Positions 5,990 through 56,439 of a DNA stretch of 56,439 nucleotides are shown here, piece after piece. A program made the position numbers and the translations under genes. The notes under the pieces were generated by a model, which did not search any database, was not told the DNA's origin, and saw only the letters and a program-made list of their open reading frames with translations. The stretch comes from Halorubrum lipolyticum DSM 21995 (lineage in GTDB: Archaea; Halobacteriota; Halobacteria; Halobacteriales; Haloferacaceae): positions 1,199 to 57,637 of the forward strand of contig NZ_AOJG01000038.1 in assembly GCF_000337375.1 (NCBI RefSeq). The letters run 5' to 3'. Positions within the stretch are counted from its first letter, which is position 1. Every line of letters starts with the position of its first letter.

Positions 5990-6135
5990 TTATCAGTGAT
6001 CGTGTGGTGTTGCTGGCGGCTGTTTATAAGCGAACGCGGTGCTGTGGTGAGCGTCTCCAAAGTCTCAGTCGCCGGCTGCGTTGCCGCTGGGTGCCAGCGG
6101 CGCTTCGCGTCTCGCTGCCGCTGTTCATAAGTAGT
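5990..6135 (-). repeat. Dispersed TTATAA repeat, copy downstream of the CoA-transferase gene
   Basis: Read on the minus strand, this region contains GCAGCCGGCG, then a CTGAGACTTTGGAGACGCTC core, then TTATAAAC. This is a diverged copy of the repeat found best preserved at 30950-31120. Two further TTATCA/TTCATAAG boxes flank it. It occupies much of the 459-bp gap 5964-6422; the remainder holds the promoter of the next gene (GAAAAATAGG near 6392-6401) and no gene that I can see. Confidence 0.6.
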
Positions 6136-10195: not shown

Positions 10196-10540
10196 ATGTC
10201 ATCCGACGCGGCTTCCGGCGACGGCGCGCGGGCGGGCGGAATCATCGACGTGGAGAGCGCGGCCTCCTTCGAGGAGACGATCGCGGAGAACCACCAGGTC
10301 GTCGTCGACTACTTCGCGGACTGGTGTGGCCCCTGCAAGCAGCAGACGCCCATCCTCGAGGAGCTGGCCGGCACCATCGACGCCCCGGTCCTCGGGGTCG
10401 ACACGGACGAACACAACGGGCTCGCGGCGGAGGCGGGCGTCCGGTCGATCCCCACGGTCGCGGTCTTCCGCGACGGCGAGGAGGTCGAGCGGTTCGTCGG
10501 CGTCACGGGCGCCGACAACATTCGGGCGGCGCTGGAGTAG
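10196..10540 (+). CDS. trxA: Thioredoxin
   Basis: A 114-residue thioredoxin fold with the active site WCGPC at residues 43-47, preceded by VVDYFAD and followed by the cis-proline segment VRSIPTVAVFRDG. It reduces disulfides in the cytoplasm. The start at 10196 removes about 40 non-conserved upstream codons of the open frame and still leaves a short acidic/alanine-rich haloarchaeal extension. The gene is convergent with a peroxiredoxin gene across a repeat-filled gap, a plausible functional partner. Confidence 0.92.
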   Translation: MSSDAASGDGARAGGIIDVESAASFEETIAENHQVVVDYFADWCGPCKQQTPILEELAGTIDAPVLGVDTDEHNGLAAEAGVRSIPTVAVFRDGEEVERFVGVTGADNIRAALE

Positions 10541-10649: not shown

Positions 10650-11092
10650 GTGGTGTTGTTCGTCGGCAGCGAGACAGTATTTAAAACTGAGTGAGCGAAC
10701 ACGAAAACCGCTTATAAATAGATGGCAGGGGCGCGTGCCTGCGAGGCCGCTTCGCGGCCGAGTAGCACCGCGCGAGGGAGTCGGTGGTCCGGAGCAACGC
10801 GGAGGACCACCGACGAGGCTGGGGAGGTGTGAGGCTGCGGTCCCGCGAGCGACCGGAGGGAGCGAGCGGGGGCACGGAAGTCGCAGCGCCGAGCGGAGCG
10901 AGGCGACCGTCTTCCGGCGGTGCTGTGCGTTCGGGACTCAAAGCCCCAGCCGCGAGAACGAAGCACGGCGGCGCCAGCACTGCAGGGAGCGAGCAACGCG
11001 AGCGACCGAAGCGCACAGCGAGCCGCGCGAGTTCTCGCGGCTGGGGCTTTGGCGGTGGTCACCGAACGTCTATCGGCAATCGCTTATAACAG
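10650..11092 (+). repeat. Composite structured repeat, copy 1 (between thioredoxin and peroxiredoxin genes)
   Basis: The 639-bp gap 10541-11179 between two convergent genes contains no credible gene but four repeat modules. (i) A minus-strand copy of the TTATAA unit, about 10650-10720, ends in a strong TTATAAATA box at 10712-10720. (ii) From 10733, a GCGTGCCTGCGAGG block has hairpin GGCCGC/GCGGCC (10745-10759) and a 10-bp stem TCGGTGGTCC/GGACCACCGA (10781-10790 with 10804-10813, loop 13 nt). A GAGGCTGGGGAGG block and a GCTGCGGTCCCGCGAGCG block follow. (iii) A perfect 20-bp inverted repeat lies at 10940-10959 with 11031-11050. (iv) One plus-strand TTATAA unit covers 11041-11090. Copies of the same modules occur at 30719-31130 and, reversed, at 33579-33910. 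Confidence 0.8.
10733..11050 (+). ncRNA. Candidate structured non-coding RNA (copy 1)
   Basis: A TTATAAATA box at 10712-10720 sits about 20-25 nt before the conserved GCGTGCCTGCGAGG block. A transcript starting near 10737 would fold into the hairpins described for the repeat and end after the 20-bp stem closing at 11050. The support for RNA function is the paired base changes between this copy and the one at 30719. Whether it is transcribed is unknown; it could equally act as DNA. Confidence 0.35.
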
Positions 11093-15431: not shown

Positions 15432-15460
15432 ACGAGGCGCCGTCGATCGGCACTCGATCA

Positions 15461-15528
15461 CTTATAAACGAGCGAGTGAGTATTTGGAGGCGCTCACCGA
15501 TACTCCGTCAACGACCGTTTATAACCGA
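15461..15528 (+). repeat. Dispersed TTATAA repeat unit flanked by two boxes
   Basis: One unit (TATTTGGAGGCGCTCACCGA and onward, 15481-15528) lies between two TTATAA boxes at 15471-15476 and about 15518-15524. It has the same order and spacing as the tandem units at 30950-31120. It sits in the 187-bp gap after the DUF2342 gene and before the GHMP gene. The GHMP gene has its own promoter-like CATTTACC near 15594-15601. Confidence 0.6.
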
Positions 15529-25331: not shown

Positions 25332-25500
25332 CATTTATAAACGACTGCGGTGGCGCGCCCCGGTGAGCGGCCCAGTGTTCACCGACAGGGAGAGAGCGAA
25401 GCTCTCGCTTGCAACCGGCGCTACGCGCCGGCTGGGGCTTTGGAGGTGTTCGCCGTTGAGCTGCCAGCAACGATTTATAAGCGAGCGGCTGAGGTTTTAA
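25332..25500 (+). repeat. Dispersed TTATAA repeat with twin short hairpins
   Basis: The 312-bp gap 25262-25573 holds no gene. It has a TTTATAA box at 25334-25340 and the hairpin GAGAGC-gaa-GCTCTC near 25391-25405. A second hairpin of the CCGGCGC/GCGCCGG type lies near 25415-25432. Then comes the core CTGGGGCTTTGGAGGTGTTC (from 25432) ending in TTTATAAGCGAGC (about 25474-25486). The two hairpins recur, reversed, at 33866-33910 next to another copy. It lies downstream of the PAN gene. Confidence 0.65.
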
Positions 25501-25573
25501 ACGACATCACCGCCGATCAACGGTCAGAAGCCTCACAGAACTCGAAAACAACTCCCGGCCAGTGGCAGTACCC

Positions 25574-30679: not shown

Positions 30680-30718
30680 GGAGGCGCGCGACACCTGATT
30701 CGGCCGATACTGCGGTCG

Positions 30719-30958
30719 GCGCGTGCCTGCGAGGCCGCTTTGCGGCCGAGCAGCACCGCGCGAGGGAGTCGGCCACTCGGAGCGAAGCGGAGAGTGGCCG
30801 ACGAGGCTGGGGAGGCGTGAGGCGCGGTTGCGGTGCGGGGCGGGACTCAAAGGGGCAGTCGCGAGGACGAAGGCGCGGGACGCAAGGACCGCAGGGAGCG
30901 AGCATCGCGAGCGACCGAGGACCGCAGCGACCGCACCGAGTCCTCGCGGCTGGGGCTT
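30719..30958 (+). repeat. Composite structured repeat, copy 2
   Basis: The same module order as copy 1 at 10733. It starts with GCGTGCCTGCGAGGCCGC, with hairpin GGCCGC/GCGGCC. The 10-bp stem is TCGGCCACTC/GAGTGGCCGA (30769-30778 with 30792-30801), with a 13-nt loop GGAGC-N3-GCGGA type as in copy 1. GAGGCTGGGGAGGCGTGAGG follows, then a degenerate form of the long inverted repeat (CAAAGGGGCAGTCGCGAGGA with GTCCTCGCGGCTGGGG). Five of the ten stem pairs differ from copy 1 while pairing is kept. It lies in the 489-bp gap 30680-31168 between convergent genes. Confidence 0.8.
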
Positions 30959-31130
30959 TGGAGACGTTCGCTGTCGATCTGCCAACAACCACTTATAAGC
31001 GAGCGACTGGGGCTTTGGAGACGTTCGCTGTCGATCTGCCAACAACCACTTATAAGCGAGCGACTGGGGCTTTGGAGGTGTTCACCGTCGATCCGCCGGC
31101 AACCATTTATAAGTAATCAACTGGGATTTG
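30950..31130 (+). repeat. 57-bp tandem repeat, each unit ending in TTATAA
   Basis: Units begin with CTGGGGCTTTGGAG at 30950, 31007 and 31064, and a decayed fourth begins at 31121 (CTGGGATTTGG): an exact 57-bp period. The first two units are identical; the third differs at several bases. Each ends AACCA(C/T)TTATAAG. This array is the best reference for single diverged copies at 5990-6135, 10650-10720, 11041-11090, 15461-15528, 25432-25486, 32548-32592 and 33579-33655. Confidence 0.9.
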
Positions 31131-31168
31131 GCGGCGTCGACACCGACGGTTCCTGCCTCGCCGGCGTC

Positions 31169-33546: not shown

Positions 33547-33578
33547 GACGCGTCGGATCCGAACGAACCGGTCGGTTG

Positions 33579-33910
33579 GTTATAAACGACTGTTGCTGGC
33601 GGATCGACGACGACCATCTCCAGAGCCCCAGTCGCTCGCTTATAAGTAGTCGATCGCGGAGTGACGGCGTGGGCTGCGACTTCCGTGCTCCCGCTCGCTC
33701 CGCTCGCGGGACCGCAGCCTCACGCCTCCCCAGCCTCGCGGTTCGCGCTCTCCGAGCGCTCACCGCATCCAGCGAGAATCGAAGATTCTCTGGCAGCCGG
33801 CGCGTAGCGCCGACGACCTCGCGCGCGCTGCTCGCGGCCGATGGGCCGCTCGCAGGTACGCAGGGCGAGAGCAAAGCTCTCGCTTGCAGCCGGCGCGTAG
33901 CGCCGGCGAC
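33579..33910 (-). repeat. Composite structured repeat, copy 3 (reversed)
   Basis: In the 543-bp gap 33547-34089 the minus strand reads, from about 33860 downward: GCGTACCTGCGAGC, GGCCGCGAGCAGC, a replaced central hairpin, GAGGCTGGGGAGGCGTGAGG, GCTGCGGTCCCGCGAGCG and GGAAGTCGCAGC. The last part (33672-33740) is nearly identical to 10812-10895. TTATAA units flank it at 33579-33655. The twin hairpins seen at 25391-25432 recur at 33866-33910. The remaining 33911-34089 holds TTTAAAT and TTTATAAATC boxes and no gene. Confidence 0.75.
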
Positions 33911-34060
33911 GCCACCGCGGTGATTTAAATACGAAACCGAGCGCACCTCGCTGGTTTATAAATCATGTCGCCGTCGGCGGGTCGAAGCCCCGTTGCCGCC
34001 GCATATCGCGCGTGCGGTCCGCATCACGGTTCTGAGAGGGGGTGCCGTGACCGTCCCGTT

Positions 34061-49520: not shown

Positions 49521-52500
49521 CTACCGGACGAGACCTTCGAGCGTTTCGAAGACGACCGCGGGGTCGACCAGCACGCCGCTGAACAGCGCGGCGATGATGA
49601 CTACCACCACTTTTCCGTAGCGACTGATCAGGACCCGCGTCGAGGTCGGCAGTTGCGCGCGAACGATCGGGAGCGCCATCACGCCGAGGAAGATGCCTAA
49701 CCCGCCGGCGAAGACGTTGCCTTCGAGGTTCGTCGTCCCGATGTAGATGATGATCACCCCGGCGGTGTAACTGAGGATCTTCCCTTTCTTCTGCCAGATC
49801 CGGTCGAGGAGGCCGGTTCGGCTGCCGTCGTCCAACTCCGCCTCCGAGGCGTCGGCGTCGAGCGCCGCCTCGCTGTCGCTCTCATCGGGAGCCGTCGATT
49901 CGCCGTGTGCGGCCTCGCCGTCGTCGGTACGTGCGTCGTCTGAATGCGTCGTCGTTTCGCTCATTGGTTCGTGGTCCTCGTCATTTCGCTCGCCGACGGT
50001 GACGTCGACGTCGGTCGAATCCGTCTCGCAATCGACGGTGAAGCCGAGCGTTTTGCCGTCGTCCGCCGTGGTCGTCTGGTACTCCAGAACCGCCGTTCGG
50101 GCGCTGTGGGCGGGGAGATCCATCGTCACCGAGTCTTCCGTCTCGTCGAGCGAGAGCGTGACTACCCTCGCGCCCGGAACGTCGCCTTTGTTCTCGACCG
50201 TCACGTCGAGGGTCGCCGTCTCCCCGGCGGTCACGTCGATACCGTCGTCTCCGTCCGCCCGTCCGCCGGCGAGCGCCACCGCGCCGACGACGAACGCCGC
50301 TTGCTCGGGTTCGGCCATAAGGACGCCCGCGGCACCCGGCACCGCCGCGACGGCCTTGGCGACGCCGGCCGGCGCGGCCGCGGCGAACAGCTCGGTCCGC
50401 GAGACCAGCACGACGAGGAGATACGAGCCGATGGCACCCGCACCGCCGCCGGCGGCGATTCGCGCCACCGTCGAGCGTGACCCGCCGCCGTCGACCGATT
50501 CGACCGCGGTTTCGTTCTCGGGCGTCTCGTCGGTCGCGTTGTCAACTGTCTCGTTTATCGGTTCCGGCTCCGGTTCGGTCTCTACCGATTCGTTCTCCAC
50601 CGATTCGTTCTCCACCGATTCGTTCTCCACCGATTCGTCTGCCACCGGTCCGTCTTCCGGTTCATCACCGCCATCGTCGTCGGACGACCGAGAAGACGAG
50701 GTCGACGATCGAGTCGGAGCGGTGACCGATAGCGAGACGCTGTCGGAGAAGCCGCTCGCCGCGGCGGTGAGTTCGGCCGTCCCGGCTTCCTCGGCGGTCA
50801 CGAGGCCGTCGTCGTCGACCGTGACCGTGGCCGGCGCGTCCGAGGTGTACTCCGCGGGCGCGGTCGCGGTGGGGGTCGTCCCGTCGGACAGCGTGAGCGT
50901 GACCGTCGCAGCGGTCGTCTCATCCGGATCGAGCGTCGTCTCGCCGACCGAGAGCGCGTAGTCGTCGACTCGCCACGCGTGGATCGGATACGCGTCGGTC
51001 GCGACCCAGACCGGGTTGAACGCGAGGGCCGTGGTCTCGGTGACGTTCGACCCCTGGAGCTCACTCGTCGTGAGGCCGGTGAGACCGGTCGCCGGACCGG
51101 TTCCGTTCGGGGTGTCCGTCCCGCTGGTCTCGGTGTCCCAGTACGAGTCGACGACGGGGATCGAACTGATCTCGCCGGCGAACCCGCCGACGGTCTCGGT
51201 TCCGGTGACCGTGCCGACCGAGTAGGACGCGGCGATCTCGGAGCCGTCGAACTCGTCCCTGACGATCCCCGCGAAGCCGCCGACGCTCCGGTTCCCGGTC
51301 ACGTCGCCGAACGCCGACGAGTTCCCGATCGGGCCGTTGCTGTCCCCGACCAGTCCGCCGGCGTTCTCGCCGACGGTCGTGTTCCCCTCGACGTCGCCGG
51401 TCGCGAACGACCGGAAGATGTCGCTCTGGGTCGCGCCGACGAGCCCGCCCACATCCGACTGCCCGCGAACGGTTCCCGTCGCGGCCGAGTCGATGACCTC
51501 GGCGTAGCCGCCTCCGCTCCCGAGGAGCCCGCCCACCGCTCGTGCTCTCGGGGCGGTCACGTCGACGCTCGCGCTCGCGTTCGAAATCGCTGTGAAATCG
51601 CTCGTCCCGGAGCTGAATCCGACAAGCCCGCCGATACTCGACCCGTTAGATGCAGAGACGGTCCCGGACGCGCTCGAACTGCGGACCCGCCCGTTGTTTT
51701 CGCCGACCAGTCCACCAACATCGGACCCGTTAGGTGCCGAGACGGTCCCGGAGGTATTCGAATCGACGACCCGCCCGTTGTTGTTCTGACCGACCAATCC
51801 GCCGACACCGGACCTGTCCGGTGCGGAGACAGTCGCTGAGGCGCTCGAATCGACGACCCGACCGTTGTTTTGGCCGACCAGTCCACCGACTGAATCGGAT
51901 CTCGCTTCACCAATCAGCTGTGAACCAGCTTCAACGCCCTGCAGTGAACCGCCCTGAGCGTCTCCCCCCGAAATAGTGCCGCCGTTCCGCCCGACGAGCG
52001 CACCGACATTCTGCGCTCCCGTGACGTTCGCGTCGGTAATCGTGACGTTCGCTATCGTGCTGTCGGATCCGGTGACGCCGAACAGCCCGGTGTCTGTTCC
52101 GTTAGGCCGTTCGATGGTTACTCCATCGATAGAGTGGCCGTTACCTTCGAACGAGCCGTCAAACGAGTCCAGGTCGTCCCCTAGCGGCTCGAATCCAACT
52201 CCATCATTCTCAGCAGACGAGACGCTCCAGCCGTCCGTCCGAGAGGCGTTTATATCGGTCGTCAGCTCGTGGTTCGCCGAGAGCCGCTGCCCGATCAGCT
52301 GCAGTTCGTAGACGTTCGTGATCGCGTACGGCGTTTCGTTCCCGTCGCCGGCGACGAGCGCGTCGAAGGCGTCTCCGCCGTCGGCGAACGACGAGTTCCA
52401 CGCGAGGTCGGGGTACCCGCCGTCGCGCGGCATCCACGTCCCGTAGAACGCGAGGTCGTCCATCTCGACGGTCGCGTTGAGACCGGTCATCTCGGCGGCC

Positions 52501-53420
52501 GGCTCGGCGTCGCCGACCGCGCCGAAGCCGCTGAGATCGTCCTCGGATCCCGCTCCGCCACCGGTCGCGTTCTCGCGGGTCGCGGCTCCCCGATCCCAGT
52601 ACGAGTTCCCGACGGTCGCGTTATTCACACCGATCAGGCCGCCGACGCCGACGTCCCCGTCGACCGCTCCGGCGGCGTACGACTCGTTGAGCACGCTGCT
52701 CTCGTTGTTATATCCGACCAGTCCACCGACCTCGGTCTCTCCGTCGACCGCCCCGACGGCGTACGAGTCGGTTATCTCGCTCTCGTCGGCGCTCTCGCCG
52801 ACCACCCCGCCGACGGACTCGTTACCGGTGACCGCGCTCGTGGCGTACGACAAAGTGACGGTACTCGCGGCGGCCCGGCCGACCAGTCCGCCGACGCCGT
52901 CGACGCCGACGACCGAGCCGGTGACGGACGCGGCGGTCACGGCGGTGTCGTTGGTGCCGTTGCCGACCACCCCGCCGACCGATTCGTTACCGTCGATATC
53001 GACGTCATCGAGGCCGACGCGTTCGATAGTCGCACCGTCTGTGACCCCGAACAGCCCCACGTCGGCTTCGGCGTTCCGATTGACGGACAGCCCCGATATC
53101 GTCCGGTCGCTCCCGTTGAACGAGCCCGTGAACGGGTCGGTGGCGTTCCCGATCGGCGCGAAGCCGGCCCCGCCGTTCCACGCGGAGGTGTTGCTCGCGT
53201 TGACGGCGGCCGTGAGAGTGTAGTTGGCGCTCAGGTTGCCGGCCATCGACTGGAGCTCGGAGGCGTTCCCGATCCGGTACGGGTCCGATTCCGTCCCGTT
53301 TCCGTCCAGGTCCGCGTCCGGATCGAGACCGACGAGCGGCTCGGCGGCCGCCGCTCCCGAAAACAGCGTTATTCCCACCGTAACGACGAGCACGACCCGC
53401 CAGAACCCGCGTCCGATCAT
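49521..53420 (-). CDS. Large GLUG-motif cell-surface protein
   Basis: A 1299-residue secreted, membrane-anchored protein. It begins with a signal peptide (VVLVVTVGITLFSGAAAAEP). Two blocks of GLUG repeats follow (about 15 motifs such as GGLVGQN and GGVVGES), each opened by a DGNGT-type lead and a SELQSMAGNLSANY-like segment; these form beta-helix-like solenoids. A Big-type domain (SVGETTLDPDETTAATV), a SVENE repeat linker (15-bp DNA repeat), one or two hydrophobic segments, a CARDB-like domain (GETATLDVTVENKGD), an acidic linker and two C-terminal hydrophobic segments follow. The start at 53420 is set by the signal peptide; the frame extends further but is arginine-rich. Possible adhesion role. 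Confidence 0.82.
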   Translation of the reverse strand: MIGRGFWRVVLVVTVGITLFSGAAAAEPLVGLDPDADLDGNGTESDPYRIGNASELQSMAGNLSANYTLTAAVNASNTSAWNGGAGFAPIGNATDPFTGSFNGSDRTISGLSVNRNAEADVGLFGVTDGATIERVGLDDVDIDGNESVGGVVGNGTNDTAVTAASVTGSVVGVDGVGGLVGRAAASTVTLSYATSAVTGNESVGGVVGESADESEITDSYAVGAVDGETEVGGLVGYNNESSVLNESYAAGAVDGDVGVGGLIGVNNATVGNSYWDRGAATRENATGGGAGSEDDLSGFGAVGDAEPAAEMTGLNATVEMDDLAFYGTWMPRDGGYPDLAWNSSFADGGDAFDALVAGDGNETPYAITNVYELQLIGQRLSANHELTTDINASRTDGWSVSSAENDGVGFEPLGDDLDSFDGSFEGNGHSIDGVTIERPNGTDTGLFGVTGSDSTIANVTITDANVTGAQNVGALVGRNGGTISGGDAQGGSLQGVEAGSQLIGEARSDSVGGLVGQNNGRVVDSSASATVSAPDRSGVGGLVGQNNNGRVVDSNTSGTVSAPNGSDVGGLVGENNGRVRSSSASGTVSASNGSSIGGLVGFSSGTSDFTAISNASASVDVTAPRARAVGGLLGSGGGYAEVIDSAATGTVRGQSDVGGLVGATQSDIFRSFATGDVEGNTTVGENAGGLVGDSNGPIGNSSAFGDVTGNRSVGGFAGIVRDEFDGSEIAASYSVGTVTGTETVGGFAGEISSIPVVDSYWDTETSGTDTPNGTGPATGLTGLTTSELQGSNVTETTALAFNPVWVATDAYPIHAWRVDDYALSVGETTLDPDETTAATVTLTLSDGTTPTATAPAEYTSDAPATVTVDDDGLVTAEEAGTAELTAAASGFSDSVSLSVTAPTRSSTSSSRSSDDDGGDEPEDGPVADESVENESVENESVENESVETEPEPEPINETVDNATDETPENETAVESVDGGGSRSTVARIAAGGGAGAIGSYLLVVLVSRTELFAAAAPAGVAKAVAAVPGAAGVLMAEPEQAAFVVGAVALAGGRADGDDGIDVTAGETATLDVTVENKGDVPGARVVTLSLDETEDSVTMDLPAHSARTAVLEYQTTTADDGKTLGFTVDCETDSTDVDVTVGERNDEDHEPMSETTTHSDDARTDDGEAAHGESTAPDESDSEAALDADASEAELDDGSRTGLLDRIWQKKGKILSYTAGVIIIYIGTTNLEGNVFAGGLGIFLGVMALPIVRAQLPTSTRVLISRYGKVVVVIIAALFSGVLVDPAVVFETLEGLVR
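50584..50638. repeat. 15-bp coding tandem repeat in the surface protein gene
   Basis: GATTCGTTCTCCACC is repeated about 3.5 times and encodes the SVENE units of the linker between the Big-type domain and the membrane part. Confidence 0.85.
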
Positions 53421-56206: not shown

Positions 56207-56350
56207 GATCTGGTTAGCGATACGACAAAATCACTATTAAATCTTTCTCAGGGTTCGACGTGATACGTCAGCTGATCACTTCGAAGGATTTCATAAGTTA
56301 TAGAGACGTATTCGCCGTGGACGACAGACGGTGCCGACGGTCATCGGAGG

Positions 56351-56439
56351 CGGGTCGGGCTCGGAGACGGGTCGGGCTCGGAGACGGGTCGGGCTCGGAG
56401 ACGGGTCGGGCTCGGAGACGGGTCGGGCTCGGAGACGGG
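56351..56439 (+). repeat. 17-bp tandem repeat at the contig end
   Basis: The unit CGGGTCGGGCTCGGAGA repeats 5.2 times without change and runs off the sequence end. The assembly probably stopped because short reads could not span it. The true copy number is unknown. Confidence 0.95.

Follow-up and report, generated by a model that had tools for sequence, protein, structure and literature searches.

What is the short tandem array, with a TTATAA box in each 57-bp unit, that lies in the gap between two convergent genes of Halorubrum lipolyticum, and why does its unit recur after the ends of other genes? The window, which is the whole stretch of DNA analysed (56,439 nucleotides), was searched with Tandem Repeats Finder, and the array was recovered at 30946-31113 with a period of 57, 2.9 copies, 91% match and a score of 273. 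The tandem array with a decayed end described in an earlier note is therefore real. Its units start at 30946, 31003 and 31060; the first and second differ at a single position, the third has 82% identity to the adjacent unit, and after it comes a decayed stub of a fourth. What the earlier note missed is the folded body ahead of the units. The array is the 3' tail of a larger element (30712-31133) with a folded body of ~250 nt. The 57-bp unit is a repeat of the last stretch of the body, GGCTGGGGCTTTGGAG, together with a spacer that has TTATAA at its end, and unit 1 overlaps the 3' strand of the body.

A unit profile search of the window identified five further places beyond the array, and these correspond to the single copies previously listed near 5990, 11041, 15461, 25432 and 33579. 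Two others on that list, at 10650 and 32548, were rejected as units. The former is the leader region of a larger copy (copy B), and the latter, judged by the unit profile and by gene calls from a caller based on codon usage, is an ordinary TATA box flanked by the starts of divergent genes. The claim that every copy lies after a gene 3' end holds for all of the real copies and fails for 32548 only. The large clusters said to lie between convergent genes are the intact and near-intact copies, with gene ends at 10540/11180 and 30679/31169. Of the 17 TTATAA sites in the window, 16 are intergenic, and the gaps make up only 15% of the bases. In total, the window holds one intact copy, one nearly intact copy, one decayed copy on the minus strand and three tail remnants, listed below with matches to R1, a covariance model of the element, and to a second model, R2.

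30712-31133, plus strand: copy A, whole element, intact, in a convergent gap
30712-30963, plus strand: body of copy A, with P1/P2 hairpins, a variable P3 hairpin and the core stem (alignment and RNAalifold)
30946-31113, plus strand: tail of copy A, three 57-bp units (30946, 31003, 31060), each repeating GCGRCTGGGGCTTTGGAG and ending in TTATAA
31114-31133, plus strand: decayed start of a fourth unit of copy A (CTGGGATTTGGCGG), from the sequence
10677-10718, plus strand: leader of copy B with TATTTAAA and CTTATAAA boxes, from the sequence
10725-11053, plus strand: body of copy B, nearly intact (R1 10899-11061, 115.8 bits; R2 10931-11060)
11037-11091, plus strand: tail of copy B, one 57-bp unit (unit profile match 11037-11089)
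33578-33919, minus strand: copy C, decayed, core stem lost, one unit and a partial unit kept (unit profile and R1)
25429-25518, plus strand: tail remnant, one unit and a decayed one (unit profile match 25429-25483)
15434-15527, plus strand: tail remnant, one and a half units (unit 15473-15527, half unit at 15438)
6022-6072, minus strand: tail remnant, one diverged unit (unit profile)

Copy A matched R1 over 30802-30970 (160.6 bits) and R2 over 30840-30969 (135.1 bits). In copy C, units were found at 33578-33635 and 33637-33669 together with a weak R1 match at 33611-33738. The gap that contains the remnant at 25429-25518 holds a full element in a relative, G026.

Fold of the body and repetition of the tail

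Across the lined-up loci, the sequence before the units was conserved over about 250 bp, with GCGGTGGCGCGYGCC at the body start. RNAalifold applied to 24 whole copies predicted a 5' hairpin domain, P1/P2, together with a long core stem that CUCAAAG...CUUUG closes, and folding of single copies added the variable hairpin P3. The closing sequence across copies is ACUSAAAG...CUUUS. At its end the core forms a helix in which tandem G-A mismatches part short Watson-Crick steps, and after the closing helix comes an internal loop in which each strand has G runs. The GA helix and this loop are both retained across the order. The near-invariant G runs, in GGGTGGGACT, AAGGGGC and TGGGGCT, face each other in this loop, and a G-quadruplex at this position in high potassium is conceivable.

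Covariation was assessed in two alignments. In the core alignment for the genus, 111 double-changed cells retained the pair, compared with 36.7 +- 5.0 after shuffling, and pairing dropped from 94.5% to 30-44% when the partner was slid by one to three columns. In an order-wide alignment (32 sequences from this and other genera), 94.9% of cells pair, compensatory change was seen in 30 of the 38 pairs, and there were 277 double-changed cells versus 87.4 +- 7.3 in shuffles.

If the fold is read as RNA from one strand, G.U pairs should outnumber A.C, while equal use of both strands should leave the two about equal. G.U exceeded A.C by 63 to 19 (p = 1e-6) in a 125-sequence alignment fitted by the model, a procedure that slightly favours G.U, and by 49 to 24 (p = 0.005) in alignments fitted by neither model nor structure; both p-values are optimistic because the cells are not independent. 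This excess points to the sense strand as the one that folds, most likely in the form of RNA. G.U pairs are nevertheless rare (about 2%), and in copy B the GGGG of the 5' core strand has become CCCC, so that 10931-10960 reads CAAAGCCCCAGCCGCGAG instead of CAAAGGGGCAGCCGCGAG and is a perfect complement of the 3' strand. The change in copy B is likely to be a palindrome correction, and the corrected type was found in one of 66 exact (intact) motifs. Given the rarity of G.U and this correction, DNA hairpins may play some part in mutation of the element.

Parts of the body appear in different versions. The P3 hairpin is exchangeable, as the window copy (C38:30838) and G036 have the same core stem in the same gap but a different P3, and in G026 the P3 at the copy A site is a perfect palindrome, GGCGCTTATAAGCGCC. 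Extra hairpin modules, for example CGGCTGCCAGAGGGACCGAAGGTCCCTCGCTGGAG, were found inside some copies, including the body of copy B (about 10838-10923) and loci L003, L019, L022, L027 and L032. Such modules may represent another small mobile repeat, with the element as its target.

Tails in this genus consist of 1-8 tandem 57-bp units, with a spacing of 57 in 67 of the steps counted. In 41 arrays with at least three units, mean identity was 87% for the pair adjacent to the body and 72% for the last pair (Wilcoxon p = 2e-7). Some of these loci were picked up through their similarity to the window array, and the polarity may be inflated as a result. The tail would most likely grow by unequal exchange or slippage beside the body, where units would stay identical while distal ones decay. 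Some loci in other genera repeat the 3' strand too, with periods of 51-68 (counted by eye) and without TTATAA, so repetition of the 3' strand seems to be a trait of the family and TTATAA an addition of this genus.

Abundance, placement and turnover

A DNA search returned 41 matches in the host genome and detected matches in 49 of 52 genomes of the genus. At an E-value cut-off of 0.001, R1 matched the host genome at 111 places; about 54 of these scored more than 120 bits, and many copies are decayed. The first 400 kb of G021 contain 32 core motifs, equivalent by extrapolation to about 240 in a whole genome, and copy number over the genus is roughly 100-240 per genome. Part of the copy sample was picked by similarity to the window array. 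Within the order, 211 of 293 genomes match, and a relaxed form of the core was found in most genera sampled, with 7-119 copies in each of 12 genomes from other genera and zero among the searched genomes of the same phylum from outside the order. Common to the homologues in other genera are GGGTGGGACTGAAAGGGGC, AAGCACCGCAG, the GA helix and GGGGCTTTC, and in many of them the 5' half also has GGCTGGGGAGG and GCGCGAGGGA. R2 matched 44 of 295 genomes drawn over the phylum, all 44 in the host's order, and when a specific DNA pattern was run over 84,980 genomes all those among the matches listed were haloarchaeal.

The Rfam 15 covariance models gave no match up to E 1 for the window stretch or up to E 0.5 for 17 loci. 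No earlier description of the element was found in the open literature, though it may have one in a subscription journal or under another name. Host contigs C10, C11, C12, C13, C16, C18 and C38 end within or beside these elements, and for this reason it is probable that recent near-identical copies broke the host assembly at these points. If the interpretation favoured below is right, few structured sequence families of haloarchaea would be more abundant than this one, which has no Rfam entry, breaks assemblies and fills intergenic gaps. Its copies would provide many natural replicates for testing expression, movement and a role between convergent genes.

Placement relative to genes was examined in 822 kb containing 51 copies, and any overlap with a called gene was 20 nt or less. 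Copy-bearing gaps were convergent in 22 cases, tandem in 23 and divergent in four, compared with 112, 352 and 134 gaps without one. Convergent gaps are thus enriched (odds ratio 3.5, p = 7e-5) and divergent gaps depleted (0.31, p = 0.018). Orientation with respect to tandem neighbours was unbiased (12 same, 11 opposite). The proposal that the copies insulate convergent genes agrees with this enrichment, but not with the location of about half of the copies elsewhere or with their unbiased orientation.

Presence of the element differs between close species. The copy A site is empty in G027, G017, G024 and G008, where the aligned flanks are 4-48 bp apart, and in G002 the flank aligns only in part, with a 92-bp gap. 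It is filled in G036 and G026, and G016 retains a 5' stub only. Among 34 sites that could be compared in five genomes of close relatives, 12 had no element in at least one relative; absence at a site covers deletion, as the stub in G016 illustrates, and non-insertion alike, and the relatives are too diverged for exact insertion points to be read by aligning empty with filled sites. Where a site is shared, its flanks were mostly about 90% identical or more, while most cores were only 66-87% identical, and the core differences comprised 84 compensatory, 34 one-sided and 62 broken pairs. Similar flanks around diverged cores with compensatory changes look like the replacement of one copy by another with the fold retained.

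A subset of copies, the only ones in which the exact ends of the element are defined, is bounded by inverted ends, TGATCGATWGCGGGAGTGRGTMTYGCA, which lie about 212 bp upstream of the core motif and 204-300 bp downstream of it. These ends were found in 26 of 52 genomes (zero for the reversed control), and none were seen on the window copies. Target duplication was not detected, as the longest word shared by the flanks averaged 6.15, against 6.16 in shuffled pairs. The earlier suggestion that the units are remnants of a mobile element with a TTATAA end is therefore supported in part, by the variable sites and by the inverted ends of some copies, but the boundary is not TTATAA and the target duplications that were to be looked for were not found. 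In one pair of loci (G021:C1:378406 and G026:C26:192958) the flanks match and the inverted-end elements lie in opposite orientation, as if the element had flipped in place.

Mobility and relation to known repeats

We consider it probable that the array is the tail of a dispersed, BOX-like mobile element that has no transposase, carries a structured RNA body and is moved in trans. The body would act as RNA, the element would move in trans without a transposase of its own, and copies would persist where they are harmless, after gene ends. No coding partner, transcript, mobiliser or autonomous relative was found. A coding partner with the same inverted ends was rejected, as the pairs among the matches listed were only about 340-490 bp apart and none was transposase-sized. 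An origin of the array in phages was rejected when no match was found in 50,697 phage records, and a plasmid origin likewise for want of a match. Exact searches of viral contigs found neither the core motif nor the inverted end.

The element could instead be a multi-copy family of host RNA genes, each copy a working regulatory or structural RNA under host selection, duplicated as the genome changes and not selfish. The fold kept over the order, the excess of compensatory over broken pairs at shared sites and the sense-strand bias are all consistent with this. Against it, copy number within the one order runs from zero to more than 100 per genome, closely related species have gained and lost sites, many copies are decayed and there is no orientation rule relative to neighbours, and we regard it as possible but unlikely. 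Also doubtful is a mobile element that spreads by means of a structured RNA of its own, through RNA priming or guidance for example, and has no DNA-transposon partner; it would be kept over most haloarchaea, amount to a few percent of some genomes and extend its tail beside the body. An element that works at the DNA level, with cruciforms or protein sites between convergent genes (a terminator, insulator or nucleoid site) and compensation arising partly from palindrome-correcting template switching, is less probable again. The preference for convergent over divergent gaps, the unbiased orientation, the scarcity of G.U pairs and the corrected strand of copy B would suit it, but G.U exceeds A.C, the corrected type is confined to that single motif of the 66, and the GA mismatches and G-run loop, which template switching would remove, are both kept order-wide.

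Derivation from an IS200/IS605-type element, as a PATE, REPIN or TnpB guide RNA, is very improbable. The palindromes, small size, lack of target duplication and high copy number recall the PATEs of Haloquadratum (PMC3119063), but a convincing core was found within 1.5 kb of only three of 30 TnpB loci and on no fixed side, and a guide RNA or IS605 end was rejected on these grounds. Y1 transposases, few or none in the genomes tested, are absent from the host G000, G149 and G075 (111, 87 and 95 copies, respectively), G075 also has no TnpB, and some copies have inverted ends. We give even less credence to the idea that each TTATAA box starts an intergenic or antisense RNA. The genus keeps the boxes well, they cluster 10-15 nt ahead of the body and in a second group around -45, and halovirus HF2 repeats of similar length carry promoters (PMC8707807). 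However, the promoter-grade TATA box in each unit was the weakest part of the earlier note. TTATAA is missing from the other-genus homologues read, which keep the fold and, at some loci, the 3' repetition, and copy A has no box just before its body. The unit box was also rejected as a promoter of the body because the spacing is wrong: the box nearest the body is too close for an RNA containing the first stem and would start it inside P1.

For the favoured reading, a mobile element moved in trans, the closest analogue by build is the BOX element of Streptococcus pneumoniae, a non-coding boxA-(boxB)n-boxC arrangement of folded modules with a variable-number tandem module and over 100 intergenic copies. 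The comparison is one of elements that may work alike, not a claim of membership in that family. Both have a modular intergenic build, folded modules, a module of variable number (1-8 units here), many copies and no coding capacity. They differ in domain of life, sequence and fold; the fold described here is kept over a whole order, and what is repeated, at the end of the element, is the 3' strand of the closing helix.

The REP/BIME and REPIN sequences of bacteria have units of 20-40 nt and are moved by Y1 transposases, and in E. coli REP/BIME serve as DNA-level sites (terminator, insulator or nucleoid site). They resemble the present element in being intergenic, near gene 3' ends, palindromic and of high copy number, but it is ~250 nt long and Y1 (RAYT-like) transposases are absent from the three element-rich genomes named above. 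MITEs have terminal inverted repeats, a target duplication and a parent transposon with the same ends; here inverted ends are clear in the subset of copies only, and neither a target duplication nor a transposase-sized pair of ends among the matches listed was seen. The TnpB guide RNA (reRNA) overlaps or follows the 3' end of tnpB, whereas the core has no fixed position at TnpB loci. CRISPR arrays have short repeats parted by unique spacers; here the whole 57-bp unit is repeated without unique spacers, and only the polarity is CRISPR-like.

By taxon, the closest relatives in kind are the transposase-free PATE, SMR and MITE repeats of Haloquadratum walsbyi, which have many copies, palindromes, strain differences and same-site replacement (PMC3119063). 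All of these features, in a haloarchaeal host, are shared by the element described here. PATEs are tied to IS605-type ends (PMC3119063), for which there was no support here, with no consistent core at the 30 TnpB loci, though they too lack a target duplication. No open paper that was found gives this core or a 57-bp tail. The class I intergenic repeats of HF2, a virus of Halorubrum, are 56-58 bp long with an AT box and the motifs TCTTTAAGTC and CGTCTNNTAGAG (PMC8707807). Unit length (57), AT box and host are alike, but both motifs are absent from the unit sequences read, and the units are tandem and chromosomal and had no phage match.

Other repeats were also found in the window. Tandem Repeats Finder reported a 17-bp tandem repeat (TCGGAGACGGGTCGGGC) at 56344-56439, reaching the window end. 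Repeats of 84-87 bp at 51619-51890 and 52657-52814 lie inside a long minus-strand gene (49521-53420) and are probably protein repeats.
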